NCBI GenBank assembly: GCA_015522635.1
Contig: WALW01000010.1
Location: 78,640 to 123,296, forward strand
DNA from: Candidatus Tiamatella incendiivivens
GTDB lineage: Archaea > Thermoproteota > Thermoprotei_A > Sulfolobales > Acidilobaceae
DNA length: 44,657 nucleotides
Direction: 5' to 3'
Shown: positions 25,773 to 38,319 of the stretch, one piece after another
Layout of the letters: every line of letters begins with the position of its first letter
How positions within the stretch are numbered: position 1 is the stretch's first letter
Notes under the pieces: model-generated
Seen by the model: only the letters and a program-made list of their open reading frames with translations
Database searches by the model: none
What the model was told of the DNA's origin: nothing
Position numbers and translations under genes: made by a program

Positions 25773-27176
25773 GTGGACCAGGAGAGAGCCAGCAACCTAG
25801 AGAAACAACGCAGGGAAATACTGGAATCCCCACAGCTTGGACGCCTCATCATAGCCCTGAGCATACCACTCTTCGTTTCAGGAAGCCTCCAAAGCCTCTA
25901 CAGCATAATAGACACATTCTGGCTCTCCAGGCTAGGAAGCGCAGCCCTAGGCACACCCACAGCATCCTGGCCCTACCGTGGAATACTCATGAGCATAGGA
26001 TTCGGCCTCGCAAGCAGCATCTCAGCCCTAACCGGCCAATACATAGGTGCAGGAGACTACCGTAAAGCCTCGAAAGTAGTAGGCTACGTCCTAGGCCTAC
26101 TCATGCTAATAGGGATACCGGGCACAGTAATATTCTACCTGCTAAGAGGATACTATCTTGACCTCGCCCACATACCTTCAGACGTAAGCAAGCTAGCAAA
26201 TATGTACATAGCGGTAACACTAGTCGGTGTAGTCTTCAACTACCTCTTCCTAACATTCAACTTCGCCCTTGGAGCAGCTGGAGACACTAAAACCCCGATG
26301 AAGATAAGTGTAGTATCAACCCTCCTAAACTTCGTCCTGGACCCAATAATGATCTTCACACTCAGGATGGGAGTGTTTGGAGCAGCACTCGCCACAGTGT
26401 TATCAGCAATGCTATCAGGCATCTACTCTATATATAGCCTAGCGACAGGCCGACATGGCTACAAAATAACTCCCCGGGATCTAGTAGCCGATAAGTACCA
26501 CCTAAACCTCATAATGAAAGTATCACTACCCCCCACAGCACAACGACTACTAACAACACTAGGATTCCTAGTAATGATGGGAATAGTAGGAGGACTAGGA
26601 ACCCCCATCCTAGCCGCGTACAGTATAGGCCAGGTAGTACTAAGCCTAGACCACGTAATAGTATTCCCACTAATACGGAGCACAAGCATAGTAATAGCCC
26701 AAACACTAGGAGCAAACCTCCTCGAAAGAGCCCGTCGGGCAGCCCTAACCGGCCTAGGAATAATGACACTACTAGTCTCAATCTACATAGGGGCACTCCT
26801 AATAGGAAAAGACTTATTCATAGAAGTATTCACAAGCGACCCGCAAGTAGCAAGAGCAAGCCACAACATGCTCCTAATATTCGGGCCAAGCGTACTAGGA
26901 TTCGACATACTAATGATAGCAGGAGGAATAGCCCGCGCATCAGGACACACACTAGGAATAAGCATACTCGGCACAATAAGGCTATGGCTGATAAGAGTAC
27001 CAGCATCATACCTTCTAGCATACCCTCTAGGAATGAAAGACATAGGACTATGGACAGGAATGTCAGCCTCAAACGCGATAACAGGGATCATAGCACTAGC
27101 ATGGATACTCAGTAGAAGATGGCTCAAACCAATAATAAAAACACCACAAGACAAAACAAGTAAAATGGGCCCGTAG
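25773..27176 (+). CDS. MATE-family efflux transporter
   Basis: The protein has twelve hydrophobic segments in two related halves, typical of MATE/NorM drug or metabolite antiporters. Examples are LGRLIIALSIPLFVSGSLQ, FWLSRLGSAALGTPTASWP, ALTGQYIGAGDYRKASKV, LGAAGDTKTPMKISVVSTL and IVIAQTLGANLLERARRAAL. I choose GTG at 25773 (VDQERASNLEKQ), since a longer frame from 25638 overlaps the divergent UbiD start. The last codons and the TAG stop lie inside the first 10 nt of tRNA-Arg, and the tRNA promoter must lie in its coding sequence. Codon use is rich in AGC, CTA and ATA like its neighbours. Confidence 0.88.
   Translation: MDQERASNLEKQRREILESPQLGRLIIALSIPLFVSGSLQSLYSIIDTFWLSRLGSAALGTPTASWPYRGILMSIGFGLASSISALTGQYIGAGDYRKASKVVGYVLGLLMLIGIPGTVIFYLLRGYYLDLAHIPSDVSKLANMYIAVTLVGVVFNYLFLTFNFALGAAGDTKTPMKISVVSTLLNFVLDPIMIFTLRMGVFGAALATVLSAMLSGIYSIYSLATGRHGYKITPRDLVADKYHLNLIMKVSLPPTAQRLLTTLGFLVMMGIVGGLGTPILAAYSIGQVVLSLDHVIVFPLIRSTSIVIAQTLGANLLERARRAALTGLGIMTLLVSIYIGALLIGKDLFIEVFTSDPQVARASHNMLLIFGPSVLGFDILMIAGGIARASGHTLGISILGTIRLWLIRVPASYLLAYPLGMKDIGLWTGMSASNAITGIIALAWILSRRWLKPIIKTPQDKTSKMGP
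27131..27140 (+). promoter_or_regulatory. Probable tRNA-Arg TATA box inside the MATE gene
   Basis: AATAATAAAA is centred about 32 nt before the tRNA start, a normal archaeal distance. It doubles as MATE codons. Confidence 0.4.
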
Positions 27177-27241
27177 CCTAGCCAGGATAGGGCACCGGCC
27201 TTCGGAGCCGGGGGTCCCGGGTTCAAATCCCGGCGGGCCCG
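27167..27241 (+). tRNA. tRNA-Arg (anticodon TCG), CCA encoded
   Basis: All arms fold: acceptor GGGCCCG with CGGGCCC, D stem GCCT with GGGC (one T-G), anticodon stem CCGGC/GCCGG around loop CTTCGGA, giving TCG at the wobble-to-third positions. The T arm is CCGGG-TTCAAAT-CCCGG. The discriminator is G, followed by an encoded CCA (27242-27244). No intron is present. Its 3' half is the parent of the degraded repeats found downstream at 28180, 29122, 30816 and 31721. Its first 10 nt overlap the end of the MATE gene. Confidence 0.95.
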
Positions 27242-27367
27242 CCACTTAAGTATCCCATATATAAACTTTTCCCTCTTTCAGGATAAAGCTCTGGCTTCCA
27301 GGTCAGAACAATAACTAAGTTCGTCTTTATTTAATGCTTGATAACCCCGGCTGATTGTCTTGGAGGC

Positions 27368-27820
27368 TTAAGAGACTACCTTTAGCCAAGGAACTCTCTT
27401 AAAATCTTCATCGAAGGTTATGATAGTGTCTATATTATTGTACTTACATGTTAAGGCTATGATTGTGTCGCTTGGCAGAAGTTTTAGTTGGCTGGCGGCT
27501 TCTATCATGCCTTGGTATTCTACGTCCTCTACTAGTACTTTGACTTCAAGGTCTTCCAGCAATTCCCTTATACCATTGACTATGAGCTTGGGATATCCTT
27601 TGGTTGTTATTAGTTTCCTTAGGCTGTATGGCCCCCTTAGTTCTCTAAGGGTTTGATAGTACTTTCTTGCAGATATATAGAGTAGTTCGTTCACTACGGT
27701 TAGACTTGTATGGAATTTGTTCTCTTCATATTCTTCTAACAGCTTCCGGGCTTTGCTGGTAAGGCTTGTCTCGAACAGTATGTTGTAGAATATATTGGTG
27801 TCGATAAAGACTTGGTTCAC
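27368..27820 (-). CDS. VapC1, PIN-domain toxin (cassette 1)
   Basis: This is a PIN ribonuclease toxin of 150 aa. The acidic site is visible at D7 (VFIDTNIFYN), E45 (VVNELLYIS), D118 (LLPSDTIIALT) and D137/D139 (TFDEDFKRVPW). It shares its C-terminal DFKRVPWL block with the toxins at 30010 and 30934 but only weak similarity elsewhere, so they are diverged relatives rather than fresh copies. The GTG start overlaps the antitoxin stop (GTGA). It lies 124 nt from the tRNA CCA end and is transcribed toward the tRNA. It likely cleaves RNA when VapB1 is lost. Confidence 0.9.
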   Translation of the reverse strand: MNQVFIDTNIFYNILFETSLTSKARKLLEEYEENKFHTSLTVVNELLYISARKYYQTLRELRGPYSLRKLITTKGYPKLIVNGIRELLEDLEVKVLVEDVEYQGMIEAASQLKLLPSDTIIALTCKYNNIDTIITFDEDFKRVPWLKVVS

Positions 27821-28017
27821 TGTGCTTGGGCCTCCTCCTCATACTTCTTAAGCTCCTCTACAGCGGCTTTGCCAAATAATCCAACATATTTGTCGAGTAT
27901 TTCACTAACTCTGTGCTTGCGTATGAAGACTACTAGCTCCTCTCCCTCCTGGAGCTCAACCGGCTCCAAAGGTTTCAACACGCCTTTTTCATATCTAACT
28001 CGTATAATGTTGGACAC
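27817..28017 (-). CDS. VapB1, DUF104/AF2212-type antitoxin
   Basis: This 66-residue antitoxin has the family start IIRVRYEKGVLKPLEPVELQEGEELVVFI-like pattern in residues 4-33, then a charged helical tail ending EEEAQAQ. The start GTG-TCC-AAC fits the xTG-TCY-A pattern shared by the other antitoxins of the array. The stop overlaps the VapC1 start (CAGTGA). Promoter-like CATATAC lies 15-20 nt before the start. It would bind VapC1 and probably repress its own operon through the conserved leader at 28079-28179. Confidence 0.88.
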   Translation of the reverse strand: MSNIIRVRYEKGVLKPLEPVELQEGEELVVFIRKHRVSEILDKYVGLFGKAAVEELKKYEEEAQAQ

Positions 28018-28078
28018 TTCCTAGCCCCAAGTATATGTTTTGGGCGTCGAGGCAATTAGCCTTTCCTGTGAGGCTGGA

Positions 28079-28179
28079 TGTTTCCATATTATCAGCAATG
28101 ATATTCCTAAGGGGATAACCGTTTGCGAAGAGTGTTTCCATTCTTGGGTTACTTCTGGAAACGTTTTTGATAAGTCTTG
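28079..28179. promoter_or_regulatory. Conserved array leader L1 (TTTCCA box plus inverted repeat)
   Basis: Block A TGTTTCCATATTATC starts at 28079. A perfect 7-bp inverted repeat GTTTCCA/TGGAAAC lies at 28134-28162 with a 15-nt loop. A TTTTTGATAAG tract then leads directly into tRNA fragment R1. The same order occurs in L2, L4 and L5. Confidence 0.7.
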
Positions 28180-28227
28180 GGCCTTTGGAGCTGGGGGTCC
28201 CGGGTTAGAATCCCGGCGGGCCCGCTA
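28180..28227 (+). repeat. tRNA-Arg 3'-half fragment R1 (att-like)
   Basis: 48 nt match tRNA-Arg from the anticodon stem through CCA at 43 positions. Changes are in the anticodon (TTT for TTC), the stem, and the T loop (TTAGAAT for TTCAAAT). The 5' half of the tRNA is absent, so it is not a working tRNA. Confidence 0.92.
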
Positions 28228-28293: not shown

Positions 28294-28758
28294 TTATGAT
28301 ATTAATTCGTTCATGAAGGTCTTATAATCTTCATCGTTTAATAAGTAGTAGGCCTCAACATCAGATTTTAAGGCGTTTTCTTTCATGGTTCTATCGCTAG
28401 TGACGAGGGCGGCGTCTACATGCTTGGTTGCCGCTATGTAGTATGCGTCAACTGCTCTACAACCGGTAAGCAGGGCTATTTCTGATGCCTTGTCATGAAT
28501 GAGTTCTTCATCCATTACATTGACGTGTCCGAGCACTATGTCTAATATCTCTAGAACTTCCTTAGGATTAATCCTTCTCACAAGTACAGCTCGAAGTTCT
28601 ACTTCAAACAAGAAAGGTTCATGAACCGGTAAGCCTAGGTTGGACAGTTTGTCGAGAACAGCCCTTGCTCTTTCATGTCTCCCTGGATTCTCCGGGTAGA
28701 GGAAGTAATAGTCAGCAAAGACACTAGTATCCACCACGACAGCGTGGATGGATTTCAA
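28294..28758 (-). CDS. VapC2, PIN-domain toxin of a different subfamily (cassette 2)
   Basis: The 154-residue toxin shows the PIN acids at D in VVVDTSVFADYYF, E in PFLFEVELRAVL, D in CRAVDAYYIAATK and D in ALVTSDRTM. It lacks the DFKRVPWLEV end of VapC1/4/5 and continues with a divergent tail (AYYLLNDEDYKTFMNELI). It is therefore a separate lineage placed in the same cassette frame. TTG at 28758 is 8 nt after the VapB2 stop. Its stop lies 66 nt from R1, the same spacing as VapC5 from R3. Confidence 0.9.
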   Translation of the reverse strand: MKSIHAVVVDTSVFADYYFLYPENPGRHERARAVLDKLSNLGLPVHEPFLFEVELRAVLVRRINPKEVLEILDIVLGHVNVMDEELIHDKASEIALLTGCRAVDAYYIAATKHVDAALVTSDRTMKENALKSDVEAYYLLNDEDYKTFMNELIS

Positions 28759-28766
28759 TCCAATAA

Positions 28767-28961
28767 CTACCTCCTTTCCATCACAAACTCTTTAACCACG
28801 TCACGGTCAACCTTGAACAGATATCTACCACTTTCCTTCTGGAACCCTCTAAAACTCCTTCGAATAATCATTACCTCTAACTCCTCCCCCTCCCTAAACT
28901 CGACATAATCAATAGGCCTAAACACTCCCTTCTCGTATCTAACCCTGATTACCTTGGACAA
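28767..28961 (-). CDS. VapB2, DUF104-type antitoxin
   Basis: The protein starts LSKVIRVRYEKGVFRPIDYV and continues REGEELEVMIIRR, the DUF104 pattern, then a basic tail. The TTG-TCC-AAG start (28961) is chosen because all array antitoxins share xTG-TCY-A followed by the I/V-(R/K)-(V/A) strand; a GTG 12 nt upstream would add four residues. The tail differs from VapB1, 4 and 5 (no EEAQ end), matching its different toxin partner. TTATAATAA lies just upstream on the same strand as a promoter. Confidence 0.87.
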   Translation of the reverse strand: MSKVIRVRYEKGVFRPIDYVEFREGEELEVMIIRRSFRGFQKESGRYLFKVDRDVVKEFVMERR

Positions 28962-29021
28962 TTCCCTAGACACCCAAGATTATTATAACACTTCAATCCA
29001 ATATACCTTTACTAATCTAAG

Positions 29022-29121
29022 TGTTTCCAGACTATCAAAATAGATATCCTTAGCAGATAATCATCTTTGCACTATGCTTCCAGTTAATGGTTTCTGCTGG
29101 AAACATTCTTTATATGTCCTC
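29022..29121. promoter_or_regulatory. Conserved array leader L2
   Basis: Block A TGTTTCCAGACTATC is at 29022-29036, with CAGATAATCATCTTTGCA after it. The inverted repeat TTCCAG/CTGGAA lies at 29078-29102 (13-nt loop), followed by CTTTATATGTC and then fragment R2. Block A plus the next 8 bases is almost the same as in the far leader at 36270. Confidence 0.72.
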
Positions 29122-29169
29122 GGCCTTTGGAGCTGGGGGTCCCGGGTTAGAATCCCGGCGGGCCTACCA
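29122..29169 (+). repeat. tRNA-Arg 3'-half fragment R2 (att-like)
   Basis: It matches the intact tRNA at 42 of 48 positions, and shares four changes with R1 (TTT, GCT, TTAG). The end reads GGGCCTACCA. The shifted VapC3 frame ends within this element (TAG at 29164-29166). Confidence 0.92.
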
Positions 29170-29695
29170 CCTAACCGGTTTTAATATGTTATGTATGGTT
29201 CCTTGTTTAGTTTGGAATAGCCTACCCGAGTCTTTAGAGGGGTTTTCTAGGGTTATGCTGCGTAGAAGGATTACGTTAATTCCTAGTGTTTCTGCATGCT
29301 TGGTCATTGGCCCATCGTCTGTTATGAGGAGTGTTTTTTCTGTCTTGGGCTAGGGCTATTATGTATGCGTCGAATCCTGAGCAGCCTGTTTCTAGTGCTA
29401 CTTGTAGTGCAGTGTCTCGGTATTCCTCTTCTCCGACGATAGTGTAATTCTCAGTAGTTCTAAGTGATTCTACCACCTTTTCTGCTAGTTCCCAGTTTGC
29501 AAGCCTTGAAATTACTGCCACAACCTTCACTAGTACTGGGAACGGTATTAGCACAATAGTTTGGTGAGATTCTAGCGTTTTTATCAAGACCTTAGCTTTC
29601 CGGTGTGTTTCCAATTCCCTCTTATAAACTTCACCAGGTAGCCAATGGACCGGTCTTATGACAGATTTAACGATAACGCTAGAATCTAATACCAC
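29164..29695 (-). pseudogene. VapC3, PIN-domain toxin with a frameshift in an A6 run
   Basis: The frame starts VVLDSSVIVKSVIRP with the first PIN Asp, and shows TGCSGFDAYIIALAQD with a later one. It then shifts at AGAAAAAACAC (A run at 29334-29339 on the opposite strand). Removing one A restores TLLITDDGPMTKHAETLGINV, the expected last PIN strands with the final acid pair. Without this the product ends at 29276 after an unrelated tail. The restored frame has no early stop and runs into R2. GTG start at 29695, 5 nt after VapB3. It could be an inactivated toxin or a slip site. Confidence 0.82.
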
Positions 29696-29700
29696 CTCTT

Positions 29701-29889
29701 CTAACGCTCACGGGCCTCCCTCAACGCCTTATCCGCATCATCATTGGCTTCCACACTTACCTTTTCCACCAGCTCTGGGAACTTTTCTGGAAGTAACAGG
29801 ATTCTGATTTCCTCTCCTTCCTTCAGTTCAAGCGGTTCTAGCGGCTTTAATGAACCATTCTCATACTTAACTCTTATGACTTTAGACAA
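29701..29889 (-). CDS. VapB3, DUF104-type antitoxin
   Basis: The protein starts LSKVIRVKYENGSLKPLEPL and continues ELKEGEEIRILLL, a clear DUF104 antitoxin, with a charged tail (DDADKALREARER). The TTG-TCT-AAA start at 29889 matches the other array antitoxins; an upstream start would add two residues. It pairs with the frameshifted VapC3, so it may now be an orphan antitoxin able to act on, or be regulated with, its neighbours. Confidence 0.87.
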   Translation of the reverse strand: MSKVIRVKYENGSLKPLEPLELKEGEEIRILLLPEKFPELVEKVSVEANDDADKALREARER

Positions 29890-29948
29890 ACCCAAACACC
29901 ACTCAAGAATACTATAGTCTCCAAGAGCAACTAGCCTTTTCTTTATTA

Positions 29949-29990
29949 TGTTTCCAGGCTATCATTACGGATTTCCATGGCTGATAATCA
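29949..29990. promoter_or_regulatory. Truncated array leader L3 (no inverted repeat, no tRNA fragment)
   Basis: Block A TGTTTCCAGGCTATC (29949-29963) and GGCTGATAATCACAGCA are present. The TTTCCA inverted repeat, TATA-like tract and tRNA fragment that follow in other units are missing; VapC4 begins within about 20 nt. A deletion at this joint is likely. Confidence 0.65.
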
Positions 29991-30009
29991 CAGCAGATAA
30001 TAGTAGCGC

Positions 30010-30459
30010 TTAAGGGATTACCTCTAGCCAGGGCACTCGCTTGAAGTCCTGGTCAAAGGTTAGAATTGTGTCAATGTCGTATAGCCTGGCGGTTATTGCT
30101 ATCAAAGCGTCTCCGGGGAGAAGGTTGTAGTTTTTCATGGTTTCCAGGAGTTCTTTAAGATTTCCCTTATCCTCTAGGACAAGTATTCCCAGTCCTTCTA
30201 TTAGTTCTTCGACATCATTTATAGCGTCAGCGAATCTTTCAATGCCATGTTTTCTTATATAGTCCCGCAACTGATCTAGCCTCTTAATTTCTAGCTTTCT
30301 CAGTGCATCTAGCCTTATGAAGGTGAAGATAGCCTCGTCAACTATTCTGAGGGTTATTGCTAGGTCCTCCTTCTCTACTAATATCTTTTTTGTCTTAGAG
30401 GCATAAGGCTCGACCCGGTGAAGATAGTATACGAGGGCATTCGTGTCCACAAGTATCAC
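30010..30459 (-). CDS. VapC4, PIN-domain toxin (cassette 4)
   Basis: The 149-residue toxin has PIN acids in MILVDTNALVYYL, RIVDEAIFTFI, LPGDALIAITA and LTFDQDFKRVPWLEVIP. It shares the C-terminal block with VapC1 and VapC5 but its middle is clearly different. The GTG start overlaps the VapB4 stop (CAGTGA), the same junction as cassettes 1 and 5. It follows the shortened leader L3, so cassettes 3 and 4 form one double unit between R2 and R3. Confidence 0.9.
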   Translation of the reverse strand: MILVDTNALVYYLHRVEPYASKTKKILVEKEDLAITLRIVDEAIFTFIRLDALRKLEIKRLDQLRDYIRKHGIERFADAINDVEELIEGLGILVLEDKGNLKELLETMKNYNLLPGDALIAITARLYDIDTILTFDQDFKRVPWLEVIP

Positions 30460-30659
30460 TGAGCCTCGGCCTCCAGCATAAACTCATCAAGAAGCTTCTT
30501 CGGTGCCGAACCCCGTTTTCCATAGAACTTTTCAACGATTCTCTTCCTATCTTCAAGTCTTTCTATCTTAACTAGAACCTCTTCACCCTCCCTAAGTTGA
30601 ACAGGTTCTAAGAGCCTTAGTATCCCTTTCTCATATTTCGCCTTAATCATTCTAGACAA
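30456..30659 (-). CDS. VapB4, DUF104-type antitoxin
   Basis: The antitoxin starts LSRMIKAKYEKGILRLLEPV, then QLREGEEVLVKIE, and ends in LLDEFMLEAEAQ, the EAQ end seen in VapB1 and VapB5. TTG-TCT-AGA at 30659 is taken as start by comparison; three residues could be added upstream. It is coupled to VapC4 by a 4-nt overlap. TTTTATATATAC upstream on its strand (about 30678-30690) provides a strong A/T promoter. Confidence 0.88.
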   Translation of the reverse strand: MSRMIKAKYEKGILRLLEPVQLREGEEVLVKIERLEDRKRIVEKFYGKRGSAPKKLLDEFMLEAEAQ

Positions 30660-30718
30660 CCTAAGCACCTCACCTTGTTTTATATATACTCAATCCAATA
30701 TGCTTTTACTGGTCTAGG

Positions 30719-30815
30719 TGTTCCCAGATTATCTGTGCTGATATTCTTGGCGATATTCATCGTTGAAGAGTGTTTCCAATTAATGGTTTCGCTGGAAATA
30801 TTGTTTATAAGCCTC
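30719..30815. promoter_or_regulatory. Conserved array leader L4
   Basis: Block A variant TGTTCCCAGATTATC starts at 30719. The inverted repeat TTTCCA/TGGAAA is at 30773-30798 with a 14-nt loop. TGTTTATAAGCCTC leads into fragment R3. Confidence 0.7.
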
Positions 30816-30867
30816 AGCCATTCGGAGCCTAGTGTCCCGGGGCTCTCTGATCCCTGCGGGACCGCCA
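30816..30867 (+). repeat. tRNA-derived fragment R3 (strongly diverged)
   Basis: It begins AGCCATTCGGAGCC, keeping the parent anticodon and stem, and ends CGGGACCGCCA. The middle (T arm) is altered with inserted bases. Position and ends support descent from the same tRNA half as R1 and R2. Confidence 0.7.
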
Positions 30868-30933: not shown

Positions 30934-31380
30934 TTATGGGATTACCTCTAGCCATGGCACCCGCTTAAAGTCTTCATCGAATGATGCTAGTGTTTTTACA
31001 TTGTTATGTTTGCAGGTTATCGTTATTTGTGCGTCGTTTGGTGCTAACTTGTAATGCTTGATTGCCTCTACCAGTTCAGATGAGTTCTGGTAGTCTAATA
31101 TTATTGTTACTCTGAAATCTTTGATGAAATTATTAACCGTATTTATGGCCTCTTCGGGGAATCCATATTTTGCTATGTATCTCTTAAAAGAGTATTTCCC
31201 TTTAACGCCATATTTAATCTTGGCGGCTTTGGAGCCTACGGTATATAGTAACTCGTTATACACTATCATAGGAATGGCAATGCCCTTGATTACACTTTCA
31301 CGTATAACACTCTCCGCCAACCCAGTCAGCTCGGTTTCATAAAGAAAGTTGTAGATAATATTGGTGTCAAGGCATATCAC
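30934..31380 (-). CDS. VapC5, PIN-domain toxin (cassette 5)
   Basis: The 148-residue toxin has PIN acids in MICLDTNIIYNFLYE, IVYNELLYTVG, LAPNDAQITITCK and ASFDEDFKRVPWLEVIP. It is the closest relative of VapC1 within the array (GKYSFKRYIAKYGFPEEAI against GPYSLRKLITTKGYPKLIV), though still well diverged. The GTG start overlaps the VapB5 stop. It is 66 nt from fragment R3. Confidence 0.9.
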   Translation of the reverse strand: MICLDTNIIYNFLYETELTGLAESVIRESVIKGIAIPMIVYNELLYTVGSKAAKIKYGVKGKYSFKRYIAKYGFPEEAINTVNNFIKDFRVTIILDYQNSSELVEAIKHYKLAPNDAQITITCKHNNVKTLASFDEDFKRVPWLEVIP

Positions 31381-31574
31381 TGGGTTTGAGCCTCCTCCTC
31401 AAGCTCCCTGAACTCCTCTATGGATGACTTTCCGAGGACCCCCCTATACTTCCTGATTAATCCGTCAATATCCTCCTCCACAACAACCCTATACTCCTTG
31501 CCCTCCTCAAGATCGACGCGACCTAACGGTTTCAGCACCCCCTTCTCATATACAACCTTGATAACTCTAGACAT
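31377..31574 (-). CDS. VapB5, DUF104-type antitoxin
   Basis: The antitoxin starts MSRVIKVVYEKGVLKPLGRV, then DLEEGKEYRVVVEED, and ends EEFRELEEEAQTQ. It is the only array antitoxin with an ATG start, which confirms the xTG-TC start pattern for the rest. It resembles VapB1 over its whole length, as VapC5 resembles VapC1, so those two cassettes share ancestry as complete pairs. The CAGTGA junction couples it to VapC5. Confidence 0.9.
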   Translation of the reverse strand: MSRVIKVVYEKGVLKPLGRVDLEEGKEYRVVVEEDIDGLIRKYRGVLGKSSIEEFRELEEEAQTQ

Positions 31575-31632
31575 CTTCTCCTCCCATTAATCTAATATTG
31601 TTATTGAAGCAATTAGCCTTTCCCTAACCGAT

Positions 31633-31720
31633 TGTTTCCAGGTTATCATATGTTGATAATCATCTTTGCATATTCTTTCCAATTATTCGTTTGTTTTGGA
31701 AGTGTGATTTATAAGTCTCA
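31633..31720. promoter_or_regulatory. Conserved array leader L5
   Basis: Block A TGTTTCCAGGTTATC (31633-31647) is followed by TTGATAATCATCTTTGCAT, matching L2. The inverted repeat TTCCAA/TTGGAA is at 31677-31701 with a 13-nt loop. GATTTATAAGTCTC then joins fragment R4. Upstream, GCAATTAGCCTTTCC matches L1 and nearly L3. Confidence 0.72.
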
Positions 31721-31771
31721 GGTCTTTAGAGCCGGGGGGGTTCCGGGTTCAAACCCGCAGTGGGCCTGCTA
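31721..31771 (+). repeat. tRNA-derived fragment R4 (diverged)
   Basis: GGTCTTTAGAGCCGGGGGG is followed by CCGGGTTCAAACCC and an end GGGCCTGCTA. The T loop TTCAAA is still that of the intact tRNA, unlike R1/R2. Small insertions break the stems. Confidence 0.75.
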
Positions 31772-35587: not shown

Positions 35588-35944
35588 CTATGAGATAGCT
35601 GTTCTTTTTGTGATCAGTGTTGCTTTCCCTTTAAGACATGTTGCTACGTGATATGTATCAGCATATTCTGTCTCTGGCATGTAAGGTTTTACTACCTCTA
35701 GATCCCCTTTTCCAGGGTTGATTATTGTTACTTTCCCTCTTATTAGGTGGTACAGGATTTCCGCTTGCTCTTTCACAGAAGGTACCGCTGAGGCGAGCCT
35801 TTCAAACTATTTTCTGTACTCATACAGGGGTATATCATCGGCGATAAGCTCTACTTCTGGGTCTAATAGCAGTTTCTGGAGGAGTCTCGTGGTACCAGTA
35901 TAGCCGGACTTGAAGGTAGCTATGAACACGTTAGTGTCAATCAT
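35588..35944 (-). pseudogene. VapC6, PIN-domain toxin with a premature TAG
   Basis: One frame of 118 codons reads MIDTNVFIATFKSGYTGTT, then LIADDIPLYEYRK, a TAG (35807-35809, codon 46), then FERLASAVPSVKEQAEILY and a typical end EYADTYHVATCLKGKATLIT. The PIN acids D3, E42 and the late D in YADTYH are all there, and both sides of the stop are in register. The start ATG overlaps the antitoxin stop by 8 nt. Length without the stop is normal for this PIN_3-like type. The toxin is probably lost unless the stop is misread. Confidence 0.8.
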
Positions 35945-36197
35945 GAATCTTCTCCTTTCCAAGCTTGTTGGCCTCTTCCTCCACCTCTTGACCTAGTTTA
36001 TCCAAGTCTATTCCATGCTTTGCCACTTCCTCGGCAATCTCGCGGGCAAGTTTCTCCACATCAATTCTCTTCAAGACCAGAATGTTGTCCCGAAGCTCTA
36101 GAATAATGAACGTATCCCCTTTCTTTAGCTGGAGCTTATTCCTAAGCCTACTAGGGATAATTATTCTCCCTCTATCATCAACAACTACAACACTCAA
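35937..36197 (-). CDS. VapB6, AbrB/SpoVT-type antitoxin
   Basis: The 86-residue antitoxin has an N-terminal AbrB swapped-hairpin DNA-binding domain (VVVVDDRGRIIIPSRLRNKL, KGDTFIILELRDNILVLKRI) and a C-terminal helical, acidic tail that would grip the toxin. This family differs from the DUF104 antitoxins of the tRNA array. Even so, its upstream leader (36256-36300) is close to the array leaders. Upstream lies a perfect 12-bp inverted repeat, a likely operator. The partner toxin gene carries a TAG, so this may now act only as a repressor. Confidence 0.88.
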   Translation of the reverse strand: MSVVVVDDRGRIIIPSRLRNKLQLKKGDTFIILELRDNILVLKRIDVEKLAREIAEEVAKHGIDLDKLGQEVEEEANKLGKEKIHD

Positions 36198-36255
36198 CCC
36201 ATATTACCTATATCACCCATTTATCCCACAACCTAATAAATACTCGCATACCATA

Positions 36256-36281
36256 AGTCTTGAAACACATGTTTCAAGACT
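36256..36281. promoter_or_regulatory. Perfect 12-bp inverted repeat upstream of VapB6 (leader L6)
   Basis: AGTCTTGAAACA and TGTTTCAAGACT flank a 2-nt centre, without a mismatch. The right arm is also the array block A: TGTTTCAAGACTATC at 36270-36284, followed by GAAATAGAT, against TGTTTCCAGACTATC then AAAATAGAT in L2. It lies 59-84 nt upstream of the start. Confidence 0.75.
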
Positions 36282-36350
36282 ATCGAAATAGATTTCATAG
36301 CTCATAATTATATTCACAAAAAACCATTCCCCTGTAGAACCTAATCTCCA

Positions 36351-36418
36351 CGTCTTTAGATTTTCAGAGTAATAGGTTCCCGGGTTCAAATCCACGGTAT
36401 GTCCACGGTATTCATGGA
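36351..36418 (+). repeat. tRNA-like remnant R5
   Basis: TCCCGGGTTCAAATCC (36378-36393) equals the T arm of tRNA-Arg(TCG) over 16 nt, and CGTCTTTAGA at the left resembles the start of R4. The rest does not pair as a tRNA. It lies beyond leader L6 in the same order as the array units. Confidence 0.5.
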
Positions 36419-36431
36419 GACTACTTATATG

Positions 36432-36866
36432 CTATTCATTGGGATATTCTGTTTTATCGCAGTAACGGCTAATTAGCCTGTGTACGAGACTCTCTAGATT
36501 GGAGGGTAATTTAGGATAGATTAGGTAGCTTGCTAGATCTTTGCAACGCCTGTTTATCCACTCGTATTTGCCTCTGTTCTCGGCTTCAGATAGTTCTATG
36601 TTTAGAGCCTCTAAGTGAGCTTGATAAGTGTAAGGGTATGCTCGCATTAGGACATTTTGTGGTATTTTATAATCCATCTTTTTCAAGAAGCATATCTCCG
36701 CTACATCATGCAGAACGAGTTTATCGTTCAATATATCGCTTAACCGTGTAGCGTCATCTTCGTAGCTTGGACCCTCAAGGTATGCTAGTAGCTCTTGGAA
36801 AGAAACATTACATTCAACACCGTGTCGTCGTAAAATTTCCAAGACATCAGCTAATCTCAGTTGCAA
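36432..36866 (-). CDS. Hypothetical protein, 144 aa
   Basis: I do not recognise the family. The product is soluble and mostly helical, with a start LRLADVLEILRRHGVECNVSF that looks like a small helical domain, a charged middle and an end LESLVHRLISRYCDKTEYP. Two aromatic/Tyr-rich segments (MRAYPYTYQAHLEAL, NRGKYEWINRRCK) are notable. TTG at 36866 is the start. It is divergent from the GNAT gene and may share its promoter region. The gene lies among toxin-antitoxin loci, but I see no PIN, HEPN or nucleotidyltransferase motif in it. Confidence 0.55.
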   Translation of the reverse strand: MQLRLADVLEILRRHGVECNVSFQELLAYLEGPSYEDDATRLSDILNDKLVLHDVAEICFLKKMDYKIPQNVLMRAYPYTYQAHLEALNIELSEAENRGKYEWINRRCKDLASYLIYPKLPSNLESLVHRLISRYCDKTEYPNE

Positions 36867-36922
36867 TACTTAGCTCACCTTTAGATCCACTGGTTAACGC
36901 TGAGAACTCTCTTTATAACCCT

Positions 36923-37615
36923 ATGGACTTCAGAGCTGAAATACTTGAAGAACTTGCTGTGGGCGATAATATGCCTCAGGATAGAAGCGTAGTTGTCCGA
37001 GAAGCCGGTAGAGGAGATTTAGAGGAATTCATAGATCTCTATGCTGAGTTTTACAGCGATCTACGTCTCAGGCAGGGGTTAAAGCAACATAGCAGGGAGA
37101 AATACCGTGGTGATGTGGAAAAATATCTTTCTAGGGATAAGGTGTTCTTAGCTGAGACTGATAGAGGTGAGGCTATAGGCTTCATACGGGTCTCTGAGCG
37201 TGAGGGTTGCTACTGGATTGAGGAGCTCTACGTAAAACCCATGTACCGCGGAAAGGGTGTTGGGAGGAGGCTTGTAGAGAAAGCAGAGAATTACATCAAG
37301 GAACGTGATTCCCATGTCTACATAATGGTTCTCCCCCAAGACAGGAGAGCTATGAGCTTCTGGCTCCACCATAGCTACTCGCTCCTCAACACGGTTGAGT
37401 TGGCGAAGAGCCTTAAAGGAGACAAGGGGGAGACAAGGCCAGTTCCACTCATGGATAGTATACTAGAAATGTACCGATGGGCAAAGGAAGACTATACACC
37501 TCTAGAGAAGAAGTACCTGGAGTTAGTGGAGGAGTTCCAGAGAAAAGGCGGAGGAGGAAAGGAACTACTTGAAATCTTTGTTAAGGCACTAGAGCAGTAT
37601 CTCTCAAAGGCATAG
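36923..37615 (+). CDS. GNAT-family N-acetyltransferase
   Basis: The GNAT fold begins VVVREAGRGDLEEFIDLY, and the acetyl-CoA site is in IEELYVKPMYRGKGVGRRLVEKAENYI (the RGKGVGRR loop). MVLPQDRRAMSFWLHHSYSLL completes the family pattern. A helical C-terminal extension of about 60 residues follows. The ATG at 36923 is one choice; ATG at 36971 (MPQDRSVVV) may be better, as TTTATAA at 36911-36917 would place the transcript start after 36935. The substrate may be a protein N-terminus or a small amine. It is transcribed divergently from the 144-residue gene. Confidence 0.82.
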   Translation: MDFRAEILEELAVGDNMPQDRSVVVREAGRGDLEEFIDLYAEFYSDLRLRQGLKQHSREKYRGDVEKYLSRDKVFLAETDRGEAIGFIRVSEREGCYWIEELYVKPMYRGKGVGRRLVEKAENYIKERDSHVYIMVLPQDRRAMSFWLHHSYSLLNTVELAKSLKGDKGETRPVPLMDSILEMYRWAKEDYTPLEKKYLELVEEFQRKGGGGKELLEIFVKALEQYLSKA

Positions 37616-37687: not shown

Positions 37688-38104
37688 CTAAGGATATGTT
37701 ACTATGCCGCGTTTCACAGCAATTCCAGAAAGCTTTCCGTCGAACGTGGATAAAGCCGCTCCTATAGATTTAGCTAGTTGTATGTAGATGGCATCATATA
37801 CTGTAACGTCCTCTTCTAACGCAAGTCTAAAAGCATCCCCCGCTACCCCGGTTGAAGAATATACTTTTAGTGTACTCCATATTTTCAGGAGATCCCCCGC
37901 ACTATCAATCGCCTTGTCCAAGTCTAGGTCTCCAATTTTTAGAGCATGCCTCCATACCGCATTCAAGGCCTCAGGAAGCGCCAAGTCTACAGTTACCAAG
38001 GTCTCCCCACTACTAGCCCATGAGCGTGCTAGCTCACGAGCTTTCTCCGAGCCTTTCTCCTCTAGTACAAGCTTCACAAGGAAGGATGCATCCAGTACAA
38101 TCAA
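37688..38104 (-). CDS. VapC7, PIN-domain toxin
   Basis: The 138-residue toxin begins MIVLDASFLVKLVLEE, with later acids in VDLALPEALNAVWR, DVTVYDAIYIQLAK and ALSTFDGKLSG. It belongs to the VapC group with LSTFDxKLS ends, common in Sulfolobales, and is unlike the array toxins. The TTG start overlaps the antitoxin stop by 4 nt (GTTGA). The pair has its own palindromic operator at 38320. No tRNA fragment is nearby, so it is not part of the array. Confidence 0.9.
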   Translation of the reverse strand: MIVLDASFLVKLVLEEKGSEKARELARSWASSGETLVTVDLALPEALNAVWRHALKIGDLDLDKAIDSAGDLLKIWSTLKVYSSTGVAGDAFRLALEEDVTVYDAIYIQLAKSIGAALSTFDGKLSGIAVKRGIVTYP

Positions 38105-38319
38105 CGCTCCTCCCTTGACTCCCTAATAAGATCTACCGAGTCCACCCTAGTCCTCCTCTTCCCTGCTTTCTTCTCGATATTATCCAGAGTCTCGAGGAAC
38201 TCGAGAACCTTGACACGATCCTCGAGAAACCTTCTAACCTCCCCACTCCAATCCACGGGATACTTCTTCATTTTCTCCTTAAGCTCTTTCGAAACTCTTA
38301 CCGATATTACGTCTGACAA
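38101..38319 (-). CDS. VapB7, ribbon-helix-helix antitoxin
   Basis: The 72-residue antitoxin starts MSDVISVRVSKELKEKMKK, a ribbon-helix-helix (CopG-like) strand and helix, then DWSGEVRRFLEDRVKVLEFL and a basic tail. RHH antitoxins bind paired half-sites and repress their operon. The TTG at 38319 sits directly beside the operator at 38320-38354, so repression is likely to block the start site. It overlaps VapC7 by 4 nt. Confidence 0.88.
   Translation of the reverse strand: MSDVISVRVSKELKEKMKKYPVDWSGEVRRFLEDRVKVLEFLETLDNIEKKAGKRRTRVDSVDLIRESREER

Follow-up and report, generated by a model that had tools for sequence, protein, structure and literature searches.

Beside an AbrB-type antitoxin gene of Candidatus Tiamatella incendiivivens lies a short leader resembling those of an array of DUF104 antitoxin genes, which raises the question of whether the two belong to one system and, if so, how different genes came to share the same frame. 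The stretch of DNA analysed as a whole, hereafter the window, is 44,657 nt in length (contig WALW01000010.1), and the features at the AbrB site are as follows.

35588..35962, minus strand: PIN toxin gene belonging to the AbrB cassette, broken into two fragments, recognised by identity to the intact PIN of a relative (L101)
35937..36197, minus strand: AbrB/MazE-type antitoxin, 86 aa (PF04014, 30 bits)
36256..36281, no strand assigned: 12-bp palindrome, AGTCTTGAAACA/TGTTTCAAGACT, its arms (36256-36267, 36270-36281) separated by 2 nt
36270..36318, plus strand: decayed right end (R-end), block A and what follows, from alignment and models R1 and R2
36375..36397, plus strand: T-arm remnant of a tRNA 3' half, decayed and colinear with the R-end

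The leader sequences given in the preliminary description were found in both places: the block A copy beside the AbrB gene is TGTTTCAAGACTATC at 36270-36284 (plus strand) followed by GAAATAGAT, and its counterpart in L2, the R-end of the second array cassette, is TGTTTCCAGACTATC at 29022-29036 followed by AAAATAGAT. Matches to block A with up to 3 mismatches numbered 11 in the window versus 2.7 expected, a count reached by no shuffle. When at most 1 mismatch was allowed, the whole genome held eight, of which six were in the array region, one was at 36270, and one was elsewhere. Outside the array and the 36270 site block A is thus nearly absent, and the idea that it is a general promoter element in front of unrelated genes was rejected. 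The 12-bp palindrome with the block as one arm was also present as described, and it is local to the window copy, because it is absent from the AbrB R-ends of both relatives that have them (L101 and L078). The 16-mer TCCCGGGTTCAAATCC at 36378-36393 is identical to the T arm of tRNA-Arg, as had been claimed; however, it is not Arg-specific, because its core 15-mer is common to 13 of the 45 tRNAs of the same genome, and the end of a tRNA-Ala fits equally well, so that an Arg identity taken from this sequence alone was not retained.

The leader at 36270 gave an alignment score of 26.5 with the u2 R-end (shuffle maximum 20; 0 of 500 shuffles attained the score) and also 26.5 with the AbrB R-end of another genome (shuffle maximum 21.5). 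Model R1, a sequence-only model of four array elements from which the tRNA part was left out, scored 12.2 bits at this site (E 0.0078 over the window). Model R2, which combines the R-end with the tRNA half, gave a single colinear match at 36270-36397 with normal spacing between leader and T arm (14.2 bits, E 4e-5), in a search of 1.2 kb, the match being missed when R2 was run over the whole window with default filters. The leader therefore exceeds chance and has the colinear arrangement of the cassette family, but the score is weak, the inner inverted repeat is lost, and the site taken alone is weak; its nature is settled by relatives and not by the site itself.

There is a second weak R-end-like match at 36875-36939 of the window (plus strand, 17.3 bits, model positions 53-117), directly upstream of a minus-strand ORF at 36432-36866, and this is perhaps another decayed cassette. 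Another PIN toxin gene with a small upstream ORF is present at 37688-38319 (minus strand), outside the frame.

The array with which the site was compared begins at an intact tRNA-Arg(TCG) gene.

27167..27244, plus strand: intact tRNA-Arg(TCG), landing gene and start of the array
27245..27374, plus strand: left end (L-end) type I, abutting the tRNA, from an independent L-end model
27368..28017, minus strand: cassette 1, VapC 27368-27820 (PIN) and VapB 27817-28017 (AF2212-like/DUF104)
28077..28227, plus strand: cassette 1 R-end and tRNA-Arg 3' half (half from about 28180)
28294..28973, minus strand: cassette 2, VapC 28294-28758 and VapB 28767-28973
29021..29169, plus strand: cassette 2 R-end (L2) and tRNA-Arg 3' half (half from about 29122)
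29276..29895, minus strand: cassette 3, VapC (frame apparently shifted near the C-terminus) and VapB 29701-29895
29948..30001, plus strand: cassette 3 R-end, truncated, without a tRNA half
30010..30668, minus strand: cassette 4, VapC and VapB
30717..30867, plus strand: cassette 4 R-end and degenerate tRNA-Arg 3' half
30934..31574, minus strand: cassette 5, VapC and VapB
31632..31770, plus strand: cassette 5 R-end and degenerate tRNA-Arg 3' half

Each of the five units consists of a minus-strand PIN toxin gene with a DUF104 antitoxin gene (PF01850 next to AF2212-like PF01954, i.e., a type II VapBC pair) and an element of about 120 nt, followed in four of the five by a tRNA-Arg 3' half that starts at the anticodon loop. 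The R-ends contain block A, GATAATC motifs, the inverted repeat TTCCA...TGGAA, a TATA-like box, and TTTATAAG. Decay of the tRNA remnants rises with distance from the tRNA gene in the window (alignment scores 39, 38, 25, and 25); this gradient was discarded as evidence because it is not kept in relatives. Two further R-ends occur in the same genome away from the array, at G000:C21:4577-4706 and G000:C8:53065-53171, and contig C8 ends near a tRNA-Arg half.

Among 79 genomes from the order, many of them draft assemblies, 30 contained strong R1 matches (E<1e-8), often in tandem about 1 kb apart; this tally is quoted instead of the one made with the tRNA-containing model, which was inflated by tRNA genes. 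In a scan of named genomes, confirmed matches occurred only in Acidilobaceae, Pyrodictiaceae, and other Desulfurococcales or Thermoproteota bins, and in viral contigs the specific pattern had no matches and the loose pattern only a chance-level number. From the relatives we took 53 regions holding 82 elements. The usual position of the R-end was the closing end of a VapC/VapB (DUF104) cassette of about 1 kb, with DUF104 VapB on the opposite strand beside most elements and PIN VapC usually present. Among elements with enough sequence behind them, the best 3' half (from anticodon loop to CCA) was that of tRNA-Arg(TCG) in 60, Arg(CCG) in 7, and Arg(TCT) in one (random maximum 14 versus a mean of 26), and an intact tRNA-Arg gene stood at the head of 15 of the 53 regions (13 Arg(TCG), two Arg(CCG)). 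An intact tRNA at the near end and a duplicated 3' end at the far end is the anatomy of a tRNA-targeted element. In two genera (L101:3013-3215 and L118:4001), we also observed an R-end variant in which GTTGCAT/ATGCAAC replaces TTTCCAG/CTGGAAA, the two copies being highly similar (59.5 versus a shuffle maximum of 16.5).

The left side was evaluated with two L-end models, each of 130 nt behind an intact tRNA-Arg gene and built without remnant sequences. They gave 49 matches in 472 kb, and in about 45 of these the sequence immediately before the match was a tRNA-Arg 3' half, intact or degenerate. The core is therefore flanked by conserved arms on both sides, L-end and R-end, as in attP.

Integrases of the PF16795 family (431-446 aa, with an N-terminal HTH) were found directly behind tRNA-Arg genes in five genomes. 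The L-ends of three of these integrase elements match an integrase-less vapBC element in G070 (25.5-30.5, shuffle maximum 16). The integrase element of G050 ends in VapBC and an R-end; along 131 nt, this R-end aligns with the one of a G071 vapBC cassette that lacks an integrase and belongs to another family (69.5, maximum 18). In a G071 array, an integrase element precedes smaller units, and its R-end matches the R-end of a later one. The tRNA-Arg(CCG) array of G071 (L286 and L298, G071:C47) has the integrase element first, four tRNA-Arg 3' halves, smaller units, and three end types. The end motifs by type are TGTTTCA, GTTGCA, and TGTCCCA, each repeated in inverted orientation. Integrase-bearing and integrase-less elements thus share ends at tRNA-Arg, and we therefore propose that the latter are non-autonomous cassettes moved in trans; such movement is supported for the class, and for the window's cassettes we infer it. 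There is no integrase in the cassettes or the array of the window, PF16795 is absent from its genome, and among the relatives examined no integrase was found with the window's end type (TTTCCAG/CTGGAAA). R1 gave no match to the ends of the integrase elements, and alignments were not significant between the L-ends of the window and of the integrase elements, between the type-B R-ends of L101 and L118 and the G050 integrase element (local alignment), or between the G071 integrase element and the array cassette L-end. The genome has one XerA-like gene and one recombinase fragment, neither within the array, and no SSV-type integrase was found in it. The fragment, a truncated tyrosine recombinase at G000:C21:13495-14283 (L120; 263 aa versus about 500 aa in relatives) on a contig that carries tRNA-Val, is probably the remnant of another integrated element.

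The lack of a matching integrase in the genome fits an explanation in which the cassettes are the same but are exchanged only by homologous recombination between repeated ends or tRNA halves, the halves being relics of ancient integration and no site-specific system being active. Exchange between tandem elements has been discussed (PMC8371274), and one cassette BLAST match stops at block A, a possible crossover. We nevertheless consider this explanation unlikely, given that several tRNA-Arg genes are occupied, that the half changes with the Arg isoacceptor (TCG, CCG, or TCT), and that integrase elements are present at the same sites with ends shared with cassettes.

An AbrB-type antitoxin gene with a PIN gene was found within the same frame in L101 (G014) and L078 (G075), with clear R-ends and tRNA halves. 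The identity to the 86-aa AbrB of the window was 74% (L101) and 65% (L078), and the broken PIN fragments of the window were 65 and 63% identical to the intact PIN of L101. The AbrB homologues found in the 79 genomes numbered nine, three inside the frame and six outside. Next to its AbrB cassette, the L078 contig is interrupted by a gap of N; at L078:2400-3450, the same 62 nt stand behind both cassettes with the run of N between, reflecting either a misassembly or a population of cells with different cassettes. Further cargo, located between tRNA halves or adjacent to R-ends, included an aspartyl-protease-like gene (L266) and a ClpP/SDH-type protease gene (L075). A ThaI-like restriction endonuclease gene beside an R-end and tRNA half (L113:4001, G023:C108) is possibly defence cargo. 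The earlier statement that both antitoxin and toxin families change within the frame is correct for the antitoxin (AbrB versus DUF104), whereas the toxins are both PIN-domain proteins that are only divergent, with other cargo occurring elsewhere.

The ends and the cargo were also decoupled in their similarity. Across 595 pairs, R-end identity had a rank correlation (rho) of 0.04 with VapC identity, whereas VapB versus VapC gave 0.60; because the pairs are not independent, the contrast between the two values weighs more than p values. In one pair, the R-ends were 89% identical and the VapC proteins 34%. DUF104 adjoined 59 of 64 R-end matches that start before block A (25 positions earlier) but only 1 of 12 that start at block A (p=9e-9); the start position thus tracks the presence of DUF104, which makes block A a module boundary. 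Cassette 1 encodes a VapC with 95% identity to one in genus g2, although the XerA there is only 58% identical.

These results bear on an alternative in which one ancestral tRNA-Arg/VapBC unit was duplicated in tandem and diverged, while the AbrB site merely lies nearby, has no relation to it, and resembles a tRNA by chance. DUF104 VapBC clusters in Archaeoglobus have been read in this way (PMC2701414), and orientation and spacing are equal in all units of the array. Nevertheless, R-end and cargo similarity are uncorrelated, AbrB-PIN pairs occupy the same frame with strong R-ends in two other genomes, the tRNA half starts at the anticodon loop and not at the 5' end of the gene, and a VapC is nearly the same in another genus. 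The decoupling of ends from cargo and the AbrB cassettes with strong R-ends largely refute tandem duplication, which we regard as very improbable.

Turnover was apparent at individual tRNA genes. The congener L266 has the same tRNA and upstream MATE gene, but its first cassette differs, resembling the third of the window (71.5%), and is followed by another cargo. On a contig of the congener assembly with another tRNA-Arg(TCG), the first cassette after the tRNA corresponds to the fifth of the window (85% over 731 nt), which could be a binning error. G040 has a cassette like the second of the window and then the DUF2283 flank that in the window follows cassette five. G014 and G022 have upstream genes and tRNA in common and no cassette in common, as the comparison of L101 with L083 shows. 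Judged from these assemblies, sister species carry different cassettes at one tRNA. The finding of AbrB-PIN in the same frame, the differences between sister species, and the independence of R-end similarity from cargo strongly support exchangeable cargo rather than plain duplication, as the preliminary description had proposed from the retained frame of leader and tRNA end.

That description also held that the leader drives the antitoxin gene, a notion that was not borne out: nothing marks the block as a promoter, and at 36270, as in the array units, it lies upstream of the minus-strand antitoxin gene, between it and the tRNA core, pointing away, and does not differ between two antitoxin families that are unrelated. 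The block behaves as an attachment-site arm in these comparisons. VapC toxins often cleave tRNAs, and the R-end has a TATA-like box and an inverted repeat, but a regulatory unit, in which the R-end acts as promoter or operator and the tRNA half serves as an RNA end or VapC decoy, kept for TA expression, is highly unlikely because the half is often decayed or missing, non-TA cargo also lies in the frame, the frame also ends integrase elements, and block A points away from the antitoxin gene and is common to unrelated antitoxins.

Taken together, these results indicate that the 36270-36397 site belongs, on sequence comparison, to a widespread cassette system, of which it is a decayed member. We consider it probable that the site is what decay has left of the right end of a small integrative cassette with exchangeable cargo, whose ends and tRNA core would be attP-like and recognised by a tyrosine integrase in trans. 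Such a cassette would comprise an L-end of about 130 nt, cargo (usually a type II TA pair on the opposite strand), an R-end of about 100-120 nt beginning at block A, and a tRNA-Arg 3' half; the ends would be the attP arms and the half the core for the integrase. Integrase-less cassettes would be inserted serially at tRNA-Arg by a pNOB8-like (PF16795) integrase supplied from integrase-bearing elements at the same tRNA genes, and the array and its end repeats may also permit cargo exchange. Recombination itself we infer from sequence. A broader proposal, to which we give an even chance, is that this is an integron-like capture system of hyperthermophilic archaea with tRNA-Arg as its platform, in which HTH-bearing tyrosine integrases, acting in trans, would integrate and exchange arm-ended cassettes of about 1 kb, the arm motif setting several incompatible end types, and which would build TA and defence islands order-wide.

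In the open-access literature, we found no earlier description of this frame. Integration at archaeal tRNA genes by pNOB8-type integrases is known (PMC8371274), vapBC genes have been reported near integrations in Sulfolobus islandicus (PMC3718332), and TA genes occur within archaeal integron cassettes (PMC9668308). The frame explains fast turnover of the TA repertoire in these archaea, and its ends, being short and portable, are on offer as tools for hyperthermophile genetics.

The cassettes resemble archaeal tRNA elements with pNOB8-type (type II, intact gene) integrases in their tRNA 3' half core and insertion just downstream of an intact tRNA, and the integrase-bearing relatives here have an intact integrase gene next to the tRNA; the window's cassettes differ in being about 1 kb, without an integrase, in serial arrays, and with an end type matching no integrase found. 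Like integron cassettes, including those of Archaea (PMC9668308), they are serial, small, exchangeable units in which TA cargo is common, whereas here the landing site is a tRNA gene, two long arms flank a core made of a tRNA half, and no IntI was seen, the recombinases of the genome being XerA-like and pNOB8-like only. As in MITEs and non-autonomous satellites, ends are shared with larger recombinase-bearing elements and the recombinase itself is lacking, but the cassettes are site-specific at tRNA-Arg, and their cargo looks functional. Finally, TA pairs of different classes lying close together ('TAS islands') were noted in 2009 as a pattern that tandem duplication does not explain, and preferential insertion or cassette transfer was proposed (PMC2701414). 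The cassettes here share that close spacing of different classes but have, unlike those islands, a repeated frame and a landing site, to which the clustering of TA pairs can be attributed, and this repeated frame at one tRNA gene provides a testable anatomy for the 2009 cassette-insertion idea.
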